36,604 bases of DNA from an archaeon (GTDB lineage Archaea; Iainarchaeota; Iainarchaeia; Iainarchaeales; GW2011-AR10), in contig JAUSEO010000030.1 of NCBI GenBank assembly GCA_030651515.1, forward strand, positions 1 through 36,604, read 5' to 3'. Made by a program: the position numbers and the translations under genes. Within the stretch, counting starts at the first letter, position 1; each line of letters starts with the position of its first letter. Below are positions 6,135 through 22,175 of this stretch, in pieces. The notes under the pieces were generated by a model. The model was given only the letters and a program-made list of their open reading frames with translations. It did not search any database and was not told the DNA's origin.

Positions 6135-6147
6135 TGCCGCACCGGCA
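6135..6147 (+). promoter_or_regulatory. Dyad motif TGCCG-CAC-CGGCA upstream of nurA (site 1 of 3)
   Basis: A perfect inverted repeat, TGCCG/CGGCA, around a CAC centre. It ends 46 nt before the nurA ATG and 16 nt before its TATA box. Near-identical copies lie at 13642-13654 and 21977-21989 at almost the same distance from other start codons. Position and symmetry suggest an upstream activator or repressor site. It could also affect pth2 on the other strand. Confidence 0.5.
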
Positions 6148-6163
6148 ACTCAGCCTGTAAGCG

Positions 6164-6171
6164 TTTAAATA
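6164..6171 (+). promoter_or_regulatory. TATA box of the nurA operon
   Basis: TTTAAATA lies 23-30 nt before the nurA ATG, which is the spacing expected between an archaeal TATA box and its transcription start. The mRNA is therefore probably leaderless. No convincing ribosome site precedes this ATG, in contrast to the downstream genes of the operon. Confidence 0.6.
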
Positions 6172-6193: not shown

Positions 6194-7279
6194 ATGGGTT
6201 TTTCTGCTTTTATTGACCGGGCTGTGAGTTTTATTCATTTTTCGGAGGACTCCAAAAAAAAGCTTGCCGAAAAGCTTGTCCCGCTGCGTGAAAAAAAGTT
6301 GGTGGTTTCAGGGGAGATTCTTGAGGACAGCCTGGTTTTGCCCGTGCATGAAAAGGCTGTTGCCGGAAGGATTGGTGGCGTTGACTCTGGTTTTGTCGGA
6401 AAAAGGCTTTCTTCGCTTGACGTTTTGCTCGTGCGCGCTGTTGGCGTGGTTTTTGATTTTGAAGACGGGGCCGTGAAAAAATGCAGTTATGTCCCGACCG
6501 CTTATTCTTTCCCTGTCCCTTTCATCACCAAGGCGGGGCTTGAAGCTGATGAGGCAAATGCAAGCAACAGCCTGCTTCGCCTCAAAGAGGAAATCAAGAC
6601 TGCAATTGCTGTCATCAAAGAGCACTCTCCGTCAACAATGTTTCTTGATGGGAGCATTGTCCCCCAGTACGTGGACAAGCCAAGGTCTGACTCTGTTGTG
6701 AATAATGAATACCTGTCCACGATAAAATTGTTTGAGGAGCTTTTTGAAACAGCGACCCAGAACAATTGCCTGCTTGCAGGGTGTGTCGAGGACTCGCGCG
6801 GAAAAAGATTTGTTGACATAATTGAAACAGGCGTGATTGCGGGAAACGGTTTGGGTTTTTCCCTTGAACACATTTTCGACGCGTCTTTGCTTGATTATTT
6901 TTTGGAGCAGGGGCAGAGGACTTTTTGCTTTCCGTACACCAAGGACGCTTCACGCCACCCGATTCTCAAGGACTTTGACTCAAAGTGGTCGTCTTCTATT
7001 TTTTCTTTTTACGTCAAGCCAGCGGTGTTTGACCGCCCTTTGCGCGTGGAGTTCCTAAGCAGCCCTGCAAGGGCAAGCGCGACTGCGTCTGAAATAGCGT
7101 CGACTGTTTTTTCCCTCAGCAGCCATCACCGCGAGTATGCATATCCAAGCGTGCTGATTGAGGCTGACCTGCGAGCGCGGCTCACCCCGCAGGAAATTGA
7201 CACGGTGTATAACAAGATTGTTGACAAGGTTTCAAGGACAATCAAGCTTCGCTTGCGCAGGGACAAGAGGCCGTTTTAG
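6194..7279 (+). CDS. nurA: NurA 5'-3' nuclease
   Basis: A 361-aa NurA-domain nuclease, the partner of the HerA translocase in resecting DNA ends for recombination. The first catalytic motif is GGVDSG (61-66) and the second acidic motif is FLDGSIVP (about 150-157). Late in the protein, YPSVLIEADLRARL matches the C-terminal conserved helix with acidic residue. Length is typical. It begins a four-gene plus-strand operon (nurA, zinc ribbon, herA, exchanger) and appears leaderless from the TATA box at 6164. The rad50 gene lies elsewhere in the window rather than in this operon, and no mre11 gene is visible. Confidence 0.93.
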   Translation: MGFSAFIDRAVSFIHFSEDSKKKLAEKLVPLREKKLVVSGEILEDSLVLPVHEKAVAGRIGGVDSGFVGKRLSSLDVLLVRAVGVVFDFEDGAVKKCSYVPTAYSFPVPFITKAGLEADEANASNSLLRLKEEIKTAIAVIKEHSPSTMFLDGSIVPQYVDKPRSDSVVNNEYLSTIKLFEELFETATQNNCLLAGCVEDSRGKRFVDIIETGVIAGNGLGFSLEHIFDASLLDYFLEQGQRTFCFPYTKDASRHPILKDFDSKWSSSIFSFYVKPAVFDRPLRVEFLSSPARASATASEIASTVFSLSSHHREYAYPSVLIEADLRARLTPQEIDTVYNKIVDKVSRTIKLRLRRDKRPF

Positions 7280-7312
7280 GGAATTAAAACGATTTTGGTG
7301 GATTTCATGCTT

Positions 7313-7525
7313 ATGTCAGCGCAAAAGGAAAAGTTTTTCAAGTTCTGCCCGGACTGTGGTTCTTCCAACTGGAAACTCACGGACATTCCTGCCTTAATTG
7401 CATATAGGGAGCTTTACGTGCGGTGCGTTGACTGTGGCTTTCAGGCAAAAGAGTTTCCCGAAGGCACGGCGGAGTTCATTGAGGGTTTCCGCAGGCAAAA
7501 AAACAAGGCAAGTGATTTGCGTTGA
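7313..7525 (+). CDS. Zinc-ribbon miniprotein between nurA and herA
   Basis: A roughly 70-aa protein with two knuckles, FCPDCGSS near the N-terminus and RCVDCGFQ in the second half, giving a four-cysteine zinc ribbon like those of archaeal transcription or RNA-binding miniproteins. The ORF track starts at a TTG at 7295. GGTGGA at 7297-7302 is a good ribosome site for the ATG at 7313 (MSAQKEKFF), which I prefer; the ATG at 7307 is also possible. Its TGA overlaps the herA start (TTGA), so translation is coupled. The position suggests it works with NurA-HerA, for example as a DNA-binding accessory, but no named family or function can be given. Confidence 0.8.
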   Translation: MSAQKEKFFKFCPDCGSSNWKLTDIPALIAYRELYVRCVDCGFQAKEFPEGTAEFIEGFRRQKNKASDLR

Positions 7526-9057
7526 CTGAAGAAATCGGGACGATTATAAGCACGCTTGAGGGGCCGTCACCCGGCAAGGTGAGTTTTGTTGTCACGAGTG
7601 GCATAATGAACCGCGGCCAGTTTGTGGAAATTGACTACTCGCAGGGCCGGCTTGTGGGGCTCGTGGTTGACGTGTTTAAGACCAATAAGTATTTTGAGCG
7701 CGCAGAATCAGTAAAGGAATTCGAGTCTTCCGGTAAAAAGTTGTTTGAGCAGTTCCCTGTTTCTGAGTGGGAGTACCTGGTTGCTGAAACCAAGCCAATG
7801 GGCGTGTACACAAACGATGGCAAGATTATCCGCCATTCTTTTCCCCCAAGCCCCGGGGACAAGGTCAGGGTTGCGTCGTCTGAGACTATTGAAAAGTTTC
7901 TGGGCTTTGACAAAAATGGCGTGCACTTGGGTGAAATAAATTTTCACGGCACGATTGTGAAGCCAAATCTTTCGCGCCTGCTGAAAAAGCACCTTGCAAT
8001 ATTGGCCATGTCTGGTGCAGGCAAGTCAACTGCGGTTAAAACAATTATTGAGGAAGTGCTTGACAGAAAAAAGGAAAATGGAAGGCTTGCAGTTGTAGTC
8101 ATTGACGTGCATGGCGAGTACACTTGTTTTGGCGAGCCTGCAACAAAGCCCGGTGAAGTTGATTACACAAAAAAAACTTTTATCATAAGGTCGCATGAAA
8201 TAAAAATCGGCGTGCCCAAACTGAATGTCGGGCTTGTTTCAAGCATTGTGTCTGGTTTGAGTTCGCCGCAGAAACGCGAGCTTGAAAGGATTCTCAATTC
8301 CCTGAAGTCTGAAATGAAGCAGGGTGCAGGCCCGTTTGACTTGAACCGTGTTGAGGCCGTGATTTCCCAGGACAAGTCAATCAATGATGCAACCAGCAGG
8401 ATTTTGCTTTCATGGATTTCAAGTTTGAAGGATCTTGACTTGTTTGGGAAAACTGATTCACCAAGCGTTTTTGATGTTCTGCGCCCGGGGCATTTAACTG
8501 TCTTTGATTTGTCGGATGAAATAAACCTGAAAAAAAAGCAGATAATCGTTTCTTATTTCACACAGAGGTTTTTCTTTGAACGCAAGAATGGCGCGATTCC
8601 GCCTTTTTTGCTTGTTATCGAGGAAAGCCATCAGTTTGCACCCCAAGAGGCAAAGGAAGAGTATGCAATTTCCAGAAGAATAATTGAGACTATTGCGCGT
8701 GAGGGGCGAAAGTTTGGCGCTTGCCTTTGCCTTGTGTCCCAGCGCCCGATTAACCTTTCCACAACGGCTTTGTCTCAGTGCAATTCAAACATCATTCTGC
8801 GTGTAACTAACCCTTATGACTTGAAGCACATTGGGGAGTCAAGTGAGGGAATTGACTCAAAGAGCCTTGAAATGATTACCACTCTTGCAGTTGGAGAGGC
8901 CCTGCTTGTCGGCGAGGCCGTCAATCACCCTGTTTTTTTCCGCGTTAGGAAAAACAAGTGCCCGGAGTCAAAGCATGAAATTTCCCTTGAACAGGCTGCG
9001 CGCGTGTTTGAGGAAAAAAAAGAAAACTTAAATAAGGAAGCTCTGCAATTCCTTTGA
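7522..9057 (+). CDS. herA: HerA hexameric DNA translocase
   Basis: A 511-aa HerA/FtsK-type ATPase that pumps DNA into NurA during end resection. The N-terminal HAS-barrel domain covers about residues 1-120. Walker A is MSGAGKST (163-170). Walker B is FLLVIEESHQFAP (362-374). IAREGRKFG and the sensor-like VSQRP (about 391-409) follow. The C-terminus has the usual helical brace that docks NurA. The start is TTG, overlapping the zinc-ribbon stop as TTGA, with an AGTGAT ribosome site just before it. Seven nucleotides separate it from the next gene. The assignment is firm. Confidence 0.95.
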   Translation: MTEEIGTIISTLEGPSPGKVSFVVTSGIMNRGQFVEIDYSQGRLVGLVVDVFKTNKYFERAESVKEFESSGKKLFEQFPVSEWEYLVAETKPMGVYTNDGKIIRHSFPPSPGDKVRVASSETIEKFLGFDKNGVHLGEINFHGTIVKPNLSRLLKKHLAILAMSGAGKSTAVKTIIEEVLDRKKENGRLAVVVIDVHGEYTCFGEPATKPGEVDYTKKTFIIRSHEIKIGVPKLNVGLVSSIVSGLSSPQKRELERILNSLKSEMKQGAGPFDLNRVEAVISQDKSINDATSRILLSWISSLKDLDLFGKTDSPSVFDVLRPGHLTVFDLSDEINLKKKQIIVSYFTQRFFFERKNGAIPPFLLVIEESHQFAPQEAKEEYAISRRIIETIAREGRKFGACLCLVSQRPINLSTTALSQCNSNIILRVTNPYDLKHIGESSEGIDSKSLEMITTLAVGEALLVGEAVNHPVFFRVRKNKCPESKHEISLEQAARVFEEKKENLNKEALQFL

Positions 9058-13641: not shown

Positions 13642-13654
13642 TTCCGCACCGGCA
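13642..13654 (+). promoter_or_regulatory. Dyad motif TTCCG-CAC-CGGCA (site 2 of 3)
   Basis: Identical to site 1 over CCGCACCGGCAAC, with four of five dyad base pairs kept. It ends 50 nt before the ATG of the 491-aa gene. It also sits 18 nt upstream of the divergent protease start, so either gene could be controlled. Confidence 0.45.
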
Positions 13655-13704
13655 ACGCGGTGTTCCAAAAGAATGTTATTCCAGGTTTTTTCCTTTTATA
13701 TTTA

Positions 13705-15180
13705 ATGACTCCCAATCTTTTTTATTTATCGAATGTATTGTACGTTCCGGAAAAAAGGCAGATAGTTGCCGAATTCACTTGCGGGTGTGGGAAAAAATCC
13801 TGCCGCTATTCTTTTTTTCCTTTTCTCCACCTCCCAAAAACCGGCTCGGTTTCTTCAGTGCTTTTTTCCTCTGACCGCAAAAAAATAAAGCTTGAAGAAA
13901 AAGACGGTTCATTTGAAGTAATCGGCTCAACCATGGAAGAGCTTGAAAAAATCCTTTCCACCCTGAGGCAAAAAGGCATTGATTTTTCAGCCATTGAGCC
14001 TGAGCGCCAGTTTTTGCTTCTTTCAGGCTGGAGTTTTTTTGACGCATTTTCTTTTGAAAATGGTTCTCCGCAAAAAACTGGTTCTTTTCCTGACAATTCA
14101 GCCTTTTCGGCGATTGAAAAAAGCCTTTCAGGTATTTTTGGCCTTTTGTACCGCGACTCTGGTGAAAGCGCAGGGGTTTTCCTCAAAAAAATATGCCTTT
14201 CACACATTCTCCGGCTTCACCCCTCAAAATCAATGGCCGGGGTTTCCCTGCAGGTTCTTTTCGAGAACTGGTTTTTTTCAAATTCCAAACCCATTCCCAC
14301 CGGTTTTTCAGAGCCGGCAAAAAAACCGCTTTCTTCCACTGGCCCAGGTGCATTGTTTGACTTTTCACCGGTGCTGGCAGCCCTTTTTTCGGAAAACAAT
14401 CTTGGCATTGAAACCATTAACTGTGAGTGCTGCACCCCTTCATCAGTCAATGATTCAAACGTCCTGCCTGATTCGCTTGTCAGTGCAGAGTTTTTGCTGA
14501 ATGGTTTTTACTTTGAGTCAAAAAACCCGTTTTGGCTTGAAAAATTCCACTCTTCAAAACCGTTTGCAGAACACAGGGTGAACCGCATGAATGAATGGTT
14601 TCTTCCCTCTGTCCCTGCCGGCCCGTTCTACAAAAATGAAATTCAGGCAATACCGCTTGTTGATGCAAAGTCTCTTGACAAAAAAGCAGTAAAAATCATT
14701 GGCGATGAAAGCCTGTCATGGTCCTGCAGGAAAAAAAAGTCTTTTCTTGCAGAAGGGCTTGGCGCTCTTTTGTCTTTGAGGGGCAGGGCATTGCAGACAA
14801 TGGGCTCTCTTGAGTCTGAAAACCTTGCAAAAAGCGGTGTTTTGTTTTTTGCTTCAAAGCAGCAGAGCTTCCACGTGTCCTGCATTGAACAACTTGCAGT
14901 AACCGCAGAAGAGCTTGCATTCAGTGTCCCTATGGCTGTTTCTTCAAACAGGCATTTTTTTGGCGGGCATTTGGCCAGCGCTTTTTTGTGCCTTTCAGAA
15001 GAGTGCTTTTCGCGCTTTTGTTCCCTTGCAGAGAAAAACAGTTTTTGCGTACTTTCGAGGTGTGGCAACAGGGTTTTTGCAGAGTGTGAAAAACCCCTTG
15101 CATTGGCTGAGCTTTTTTCCTGTTCTTTTGGCCTGCCTCGGCCCCTCATTTTGAGCCAGAGCCTTCCAGAAAAGACTTAA
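13705..15180 (+). CDS. Uncharacterised 491-aa protein with CGCGKKSC and CECC motifs
   Basis: A long single ORF. The track extends it upstream to 13429, but that part is antisense to the protease gene. The ATG at 13705 (MTPNLFYLSNV) is the natural start. A Cys cluster near the N-terminus (CGCGKKSC) and a CECC motif in mid-protein, followed by a region rich in conserved-looking aromatic residues (FYFESKNPFWLEKF), suggest metal binding. No signal peptide or transmembrane helix is evident. Size and the CECC block remind me of an uncharacterised archaeal family, perhaps DUF530, but I cannot confirm this. It is followed by the S17e gene and may share the regulatory motif at 13642 with nurA and the 45-aa zinc ribbon. 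Confidence 0.75.
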   Translation: MTPNLFYLSNVLYVPEKRQIVAEFTCGCGKKSCRYSFFPFLHLPKTGSVSSVLFSSDRKKIKLEEKDGSFEVIGSTMEELEKILSTLRQKGIDFSAIEPERQFLLLSGWSFFDAFSFENGSPQKTGSFPDNSAFSAIEKSLSGIFGLLYRDSGESAGVFLKKICLSHILRLHPSKSMAGVSLQVLFENWFFSNSKPIPTGFSEPAKKPLSSTGPGALFDFSPVLAALFSENNLGIETINCECCTPSSVNDSNVLPDSLVSAEFLLNGFYFESKNPFWLEKFHSSKPFAEHRVNRMNEWFLPSVPAGPFYKNEIQAIPLVDAKSLDKKAVKIIGDESLSWSCRKKKSFLAEGLGALLSLRGRALQTMGSLESENLAKSGVLFFASKQQSFHVSCIEQLAVTAEELAFSVPMAVSSNRHFFGGHLASAFLCLSEECFSRFCSLAEKNSFCVLSRCGNRVFAECEKPLALAELFSCSFGLPRPLILSQSLPEKT

Positions 15181-21976: not shown

Positions 21977-21989
21977 TTTCGCACCGGCA
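21977..21989 (+). promoter_or_regulatory. Dyad-type motif ending CGCACCGGCA (site 3 of 3)
   Basis: The core CGCACCGGCA is identical to sites 1 and 2, but the left arm is weaker (TTTCG). It ends 48 nt before the 45-aa zinc-ribbon ATG and 15 nt before a TATA-like CTTTTAAAG (22005-22013). The nearest minus-strand gene is convergent, so only the plus-strand gene can be its target. Confidence 0.45.
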
Positions 21990-22037
21990 GAGTGGTCTGG
22001 GGAGCTTTTAAAGCTTTAGAACCGTTTTCTTTTCTTT

Positions 22038-22175
22038 ATGCAAAAAGTTGTTGAGTTCAACCCGCTTGAGGATTACAAGAACTGCCCGTCGTGCGGAGCA
22101 GGGCTTGTGGAAATCCATGCAAAAACCGTGTGCACGCGCTGTGGTTATCGGCGCGGTTGCTGTGACCTTATGTAA
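22038..22175 (+). CDS. 45-aa zinc-ribbon miniprotein
   Basis: Too short for the ORF track. It has an ATG start, 45 codons and TAA. Two knuckles, NCPSCGAG (C16, C19) and VCTRCGYR (C32, C35), form a zinc ribbon, and a GCC near the C-terminus adds two more cysteines. The upstream TATA box CTTTTAAAG lies about 25-33 nt before the ATG, so the mRNA would be leaderless. It has its own promoter rather than reading on from the ATPase gene. Such mini zinc ribbons are common in archaea and usually bind nucleic acid or partner proteins. No specific function is known. Confidence 0.72.
   Translation: MQKVVEFNPLEDYKNCPSCGAGLVEIHAKTVCTRCGYRRGCCDLM

Follow-up and report, generated by a model that had tools for sequence, protein, structure and literature searches.

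The window, that is, the whole stretch of 36,604 nucleotides analysed here, contains three exact copies of the ten-base sequence CGCACCGGCA, located on the plus strand at positions 6138-6147, 13645-13654 and 21980-21989. The mean number expected by chance in the window is 0.06, and none of 100 dinucleotide shuffles reached three copies. The copies lie 46, 50 and 48 nt ahead of start codons at 6194, 13705 and 22038, respectively; a search of the window thus confirmed the coordinates, orientation and ATG gaps given in the initial annotation and placed the copy number far above chance. The TATA boxes that the annotation reported behind two of the sites are likewise present, with TTTAAA found 16-17 nt 3' of sites 1 and 3 (none expected). 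At the TATA position, site 2 has only a weak GTTATT; a divergent ORF also begins at an ATG just 21 bp away from this site. The features are as follows:

6136-6156, plus strand: element site 1, with the core GCACCGGCA at 6139-6147, aligned with the 129 sites described below
6164-6169, plus strand: TATA box TTTAAA of the nurA promoter
6194-7279, plus strand: nurA, 361 aa, first gene of a nurA-ZnR-herA operon (Pfam NurA, E 3e-11)
7295-7525, plus strand: 76-aa zinc-ribbon protein between nurA and herA (weak zinc-ribbon matches)
7522-9057, plus strand: herA helicase, 511 aa (Pfam DUF87/HerA central domain, E 4e-26)
13643-13663, plus strand: element site 2, core at 13646-13654
13675-13680, plus strand: weak TATA-like GTTATT, found at the same place in a second promoter of this genome (L012)
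13705-15180, plus strand: 491-aa predicted B-family-DNA-polymerase-like protein (27 relatives; AlphaFold2 and Foldseek)
21978-21998, plus strand: element site 3, core at 21981-21989
22007-22012, plus strand: TATA box TTTAAA of the site 3 promoter
22038-22175, plus strand: 45-aa zinc-ribbon protein (Zn_ribbon_3, below cut-off)

The genome to which the window belongs is a Candidatus Diapherotrites metagenome-assembled genome (MAG) of 770 kb in 84 contigs, estimated to be 73% complete. It contains seven exact copies of CGCACCGGCA, versus two for the reversed control, and by inspection all seven are intergenic and oriented like the gene or ORF that follows them: nurA, the 491-aa gene, the 45-aa zinc ribbon, a LAGLIDADG ORF, an exonuclease-like ORF, an HTH ORF and a small-ORF region. 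In the same MAG, copies with a single mismatch, at the first base, precede radA (L023) and XPD (L014). Two element copies situated 1 kb apart near a Bro-N gene (L004:400-530 and 1430-1550, contig C65) have similar flanks, both upstream and downstream, over more than 50 bp (CCCAATGRGC...), like a duplicated promoter cassette.

Scanning of 93 genomes with the pattern GCACCGGCA-N12-20-TTWAAA revealed enrichment in the genus and family of this archaeon (f1) and in families f6 and f15, and near absence elsewhere, with a maximum of 18 matches in one genome (control 0). A looser TATA then gave a fuller list, in which 16 related Candidatus Diapherotrites genomes together contain about 129 copies of GCACCGGCA-N16-18-TATA-N~25-ATG, versus zero to two per genome for the reversed pattern. 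The logo of the 129 aligned sites reads YYC-GCACCGGCA-AYGA-RSYCT, with the TATA mostly 16-18 nt past the core; because site finding demanded the exact 9-mer and an AT-rich hexamer, the core of this logo is invariant by design, and the regulon list, drawn from incomplete MAGs with mechanical ORF calls, is itself incomplete. The second part of the element is mainly ACC, ACT or GGT, and its two bases AC/GG covary across the 129 sites. The perfect 13-bp dyad to which the initial annotation gave prominence is present at site 1 and in only three of the 129 sites; the conserved element is asymmetric, and the dyad, discarded as a functional feature, is incidental.

The distances from site to ATG peak at 45-48 nt, with 21, 8, 17 and 6 sites at these four offsets versus a mean of 2.7 at each other offset. 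Scatter throughout coding sequence and a lack of positional preference were looked for genome-wide and in the relatives, and neither was found; the constant position relative to the promoter that had been proposed from three sites thus extends to the larger set. This constancy reflects the fixed position of the TATA box and the apparently leaderless nature of the transcripts. Leaders are present at the RadA and DinD-like genes, several with a Shine-Dalgarno-like GGAGG. The related genomes are not independent of one another; the different target genes are.

At the same position, the 27 relatives of the 491-aa gene and the NurA genes of many families usually carry a diverged form of the element, such as CACCGGAAACCCACTC, CAGCGGAAATCC or CAGTGGAAATCCACTC. 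This GGAA pattern is enriched in families f7, f8 and f18, and its loci with a TATA box precede NurA, NreA, the PolB-like gene, an XPD-like gene, a LAGLIDADG ORF, TnpB and a conserved small protein; loci that lack one lie in coding DNA or have no assigned gene. Judged from these promoter sequences, the element is kept at orthologous promoters across families. Such conservation, like the near-zero controls across genomes and the excess over shuffled sequence in the window, reduces to a vanishing probability the idea that the motif reflects chance or a dispersed repeat, for which one can cite the isolated matches without a TATA box in coding DNA.

Target genes were assigned by Pfam, NCBIfam and clustering. 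Repair-type targets, including the Bro-N/DinD-like and PolB-like proteins, account for 54 of the 129 sites. The element was found ahead of RadA (10 sites), NurA (8, each in a different genome), MCM (6), Hel308 (5, some of them second genes), Hef (3; 909 bits), archaeal RecJ (3), NreA (3), XPD/Rad3 (1) and a ZnR-HerA operon (1), as well as ahead of Bro-N/DinD-like proteins (9; the NCBIfam DinD match is marginal, E 0.001) and the PolB-like protein (5). Most remaining sites precede LAGLIDADG endonucleases, DNA methyltransferases, TnpB, an OB-fold ORF and unknowns, and others precede PIN/MazF/RelE/HicB-like toxin-antitoxin ORFs, partly assigned by eye. Core repair genes thus make up less than half of the sites, many of which belong to mobile or toxin-antitoxin genes and some of which are chance matches. 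Bacterial SOS regulons typically mix repair genes with mobile or toxin genes. The initial annotation had envisaged a small regulon linking DNA repair with two unknown proteins; the link with repair stands (radA, nurA, mcm, hef and others), and the small size gives way to a broad repair and replication set that includes mobile elements. It is very unlikely that the motif is a general strong-promoter or alternative core-promoter (TFB/BRE-type) element lacking a dedicated regulator: the fixed spacing to the TATA box and the many unrelated genes would suit such an element, but each genome has few sites, these are strongly biased toward DNA repair, and ribosomal, RNA-polymerase or metabolic genes do not dominate.

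Several further features were noted among the target loci. A conserved protein of 78-94 aa (GAVHVAVWEN..KEG...PKAILALQKAYE) recurs among the regulon genes of different families (L102:2233-2490, minus strand; also L115, L127 and L153, and near L251, L252 and L256); it matched nothing in Pfam or NCBIfam and nothing significantly in the PDB. The MCM genes of L120 and L170 contain inteins according to Pfam, and the RadA ORFs of L090 and L125 both exceed 820 aa, suggesting inteins there as well. In this archaeal MAG, a 224-aa ORF just ahead of a Hel308-like gene (L012:390-1061, minus strand) matches sigma-70 region 2 with an E value of 2.9e-7. At L001:591-1534, an apparent intron-containing tRNA gene precedes a LAGLIDADG ORF, after which the 5' end of the tRNA is repeated, as if a homing element had inserted there.

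The initial annotation left two of the three downstream genes as unknowns, and one of these can now be given a fold. The 491-aa protein belongs to no Pfam or NCBIfam family, and PDB sequence searches with its family returned non-significant matches only, all of them PolB in one search (E 0.2-0.6). A single-sequence NurA search of the genome contigs returned no relatives; a search with an alignment of the 491-aa protein found 27. An earlier AlphaFold2 model built from five sequences (pLDDT 58) was set aside; with 26 relatives, the model reached a pLDDT of 90 and a pTM of 0.89, and the best 50 PDB matches in Foldseek were all B-family DNA polymerases, with E values from 6e-8, a probability of 1.00 and a TMq of up to ~0.5. 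The predicted structure thus has a PolB fold. At 491 aa, versus about 750-780 in B-family polymerases, the protein falls ~250 residues short, as would be expected if the exonuclease domain is missing. In the 26-row alignment, inspected by eye, the DxD of motif C and the KxxxNSxYG of motif B are absent and the motif A aspartate varies; the protein is therefore read as an inactive PolB relative that has apparently lost both its exonuclease domain and its catalytic motifs. Sulfolobus PolB2 is damage-induced and was long thought inactive before it proved active (PMC11791011). Like PolB2/Dpo2, the 491-aa protein appears to combine a B-family polymerase fold and a degraded active site with membership of a putative damage regulon; unlike PolB2/Dpo2, it is shorter, lacks the exonuclease domain and carries a CxCC motif (C240, C242, C243 and C341 may form a metal site), and the identity between the two is too low for sequence-based family assignment. 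The 45-aa zinc ribbon stays without assignment; a possible diverged counterpart occupies the same place in archaeon GW2011_AR10 (L081:388-504, E 0.08). Through the element, both formerly unknown proteins are placed in DNA repair.

It has long been asked whether archaea mount a coordinated response of the SOS type, and we know of no described DNA-damage regulon for DPANN archaea. A search of the open-access literature found no paper on this element or on a Diapherotrites damage regulon. In Halobacterium NRC-1, radA1 and a few other UV-induced genes carry the UV motif TTTCACTTTCA upstream of their TATA box, ~50 nt before the start codon; the motif was proposed from expression data as a regulator site for about five genes, one of them encoding a putative transposase (PMC2556686). 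The Diapherotrites element shares its distance from the ATG, its position upstream of the TATA box and radA as a target (with a longer leader in that case), but its logo (YYCGCACCGGCA...) is unrelated in sequence, and its regulon is wider and known here from sequence alone. In Sulfolobales, the damage-responsive promoter element ANTTTC is read by the Orc1/Cdc6 paralog Orc1-2 (PMC9738581, PMC5817253), the damage regulator of this group (PMC9738581), and one Sulfolobus study saw no rise in the expression of DNA-repair genes after UV (PMC2246294). The conserved Diapherotrites element, in contrast, does not contain ANTTTC and has core repair genes among its targets; an Orc1/Cdc6 paralog as reader would be common to both systems, in Diapherotrites as a candidate only. 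The known archaeal elements of Halobacterium and Sulfolobus cover few core repair genes, whereas one conserved promoter element in Diapherotrites joins RadA, NurA-HerA, MCM, Hef, Hel308, XPD, RecJ, NreA and DinD-like genes.

In gene content, the putative regulon parallels the LexA/RecA system of bacteria. As in the SOS response, a RecA-family recombinase, helicases and nucleases (radA, nurA, mcm, hef, hel308, recJ, xpd) share one operator-like element, which also stands ahead of a B-family polymerase relative and of DinD-like, mobile and toxin-antitoxin genes. With its sequence, position, conservation and gene set established by computation, the element is very probably the cis-element of a dedicated DNA-repair regulon in Diapherotrites, an assessment that does not extend to the identity of its reader. 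It appears to be the binding site of a common putative regulator, which would provide something like the bacterial SOS response. A sequence-specific regulator would recognize it immediately ahead of the BRE/TATA, the usual binding place of archaeal activators, at genes that are mostly leaderless; one protein may bind all sites, would from this position activate rather than repress, and would presumably take DNA damage as its signal. An unlikely variant makes the element the operator of a repressor that is removed upon damage, with LexA-like logic in a non-LexA protein. SOS regulons elsewhere do act through repression, and DinD-like, toxin-antitoxin, mobile-element and polymerase genes are their typical content, but the Diapherotrites element lies upstream of the BRE/TATA and not over the TATA box or start site. 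Moreover, the LexA-type S24 peptidase (PF00717) is absent from 11 of 12 genomes, including that of the window; this speaks against LexA/S24 regulators and, together with the activator position of the site, distinguishes the system from bacterial SOS. WYL regulators of the DriD/PafBC type were likewise dismissed, as WYL domains are missing from 14 of 16 genomes. A single conserved, autoregulated HTH gene was not seen among the targets; the HTH ORFs under the element are isolated cases.

The initial annotation had predicted one DNA-binding regulator, a proposal that the analysis supports. Orc1/Cdc6 proteins are encoded in all 20 genomes searched, nearly all of which have two paralogs. In each of the seven f1/f15 genomes examined, an element facing away from orc1-b lies upstream of this gene, at a distance of up to ~300 bp. 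A position weight matrix (PWM) of the diverged sites detected the element (p <= 0.05) upstream of 8 of 18 orc1-b genes versus 1 of 19 orc1-a genes; the orc1-b promoters of families f6 and f8 are without it. The archaeal ORB consensus CTTCCAGTGGAAACGAAAGGGGT (PMC4153887) resembles the element in its GG-AA core, its GC-rich second part and the sites beside orc1-b. The Diapherotrites sites differ in being single and ahead of TATA boxes, in their GGCA form and in their ACC/GGT second part, and the similarity is only marginally significant, with p ~0.02 on the order-wide PWM, whose 35 sites were chosen by eye, and 0.61 (not significant) on the PWM with the GGCA 9-mer fixed. Residue 339, in the ERRLRD helix of the Orc1-b winged helix domain, is L in each of the eight GGCA genomes, and the eight GGAA genomes have I, V or F there; the recognition helix of Orc1-a is nearly constant. 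In the Orc1-b tree, the GGCA genomes fall into a single clade, so this correlation between helix and motif may represent a single event of descent.

Taken together, these comparisons make Orc1-b, the second Orc1/Cdc6 paralog, the leading candidate for a regulator using an ORB-like site, in analogy to Orc1-2 of Sulfolobales, a tentative assignment that falls somewhat short of probable; its link to the element is suggestive only. The fuller scenario, in which Orc1-b would be the master regulator of an SOS-like regulon across Diapherotrites through ORB-like sites upstream of TATA, with co-divergence of helix and site (from GGAA to GGCA) and with an inactivated PolB that lacks its exonuclease domain as a core effector, is possible but doubtful as a whole. 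The resemblance to ORB, the sites beside orc1-b and the presence of MCM among the targets could also mean that the element is an ORB through which Orc1/Cdc6 ties the transcription of replication and repair genes to replication initiation or growth, and not to damage. This is quite improbable: the targets are mostly recombination and repair genes and mobile elements, not general replication genes, and the resemblance to ORB is weak in the GGCA form. For the damage regulon favoured here, the element offers a defined site for DNA-binding pull-down and suggests, in testable form, that damage control may be linked to a protein that binds origins. Should Orc1-b prove to be the reader, a lineage far removed from Sulfolobales would have recruited replication initiators to regulate the response to damage.

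Two other features were observed around the orc1 genes. Divergent from orc1-b and downstream of the regulon element with its TATA box lies a conserved hairpin-forming stretch (L043:16110-16225, minus strand, in contig C43 of the same genome as the window; also L315, L307, L298, L306 and, in G029, L308), possibly a small RNA, for which Rfam gave no credible match. Its stem, GTTAAGG/CCTTAAC, is perfectly kept in five of six genomes. Upstream of orc1-a, several families share an inverted repeat like GGAAGTGGTTTGCTTCC (L286, L287, L288, L291, L294 and L295), which is probably an origin element.
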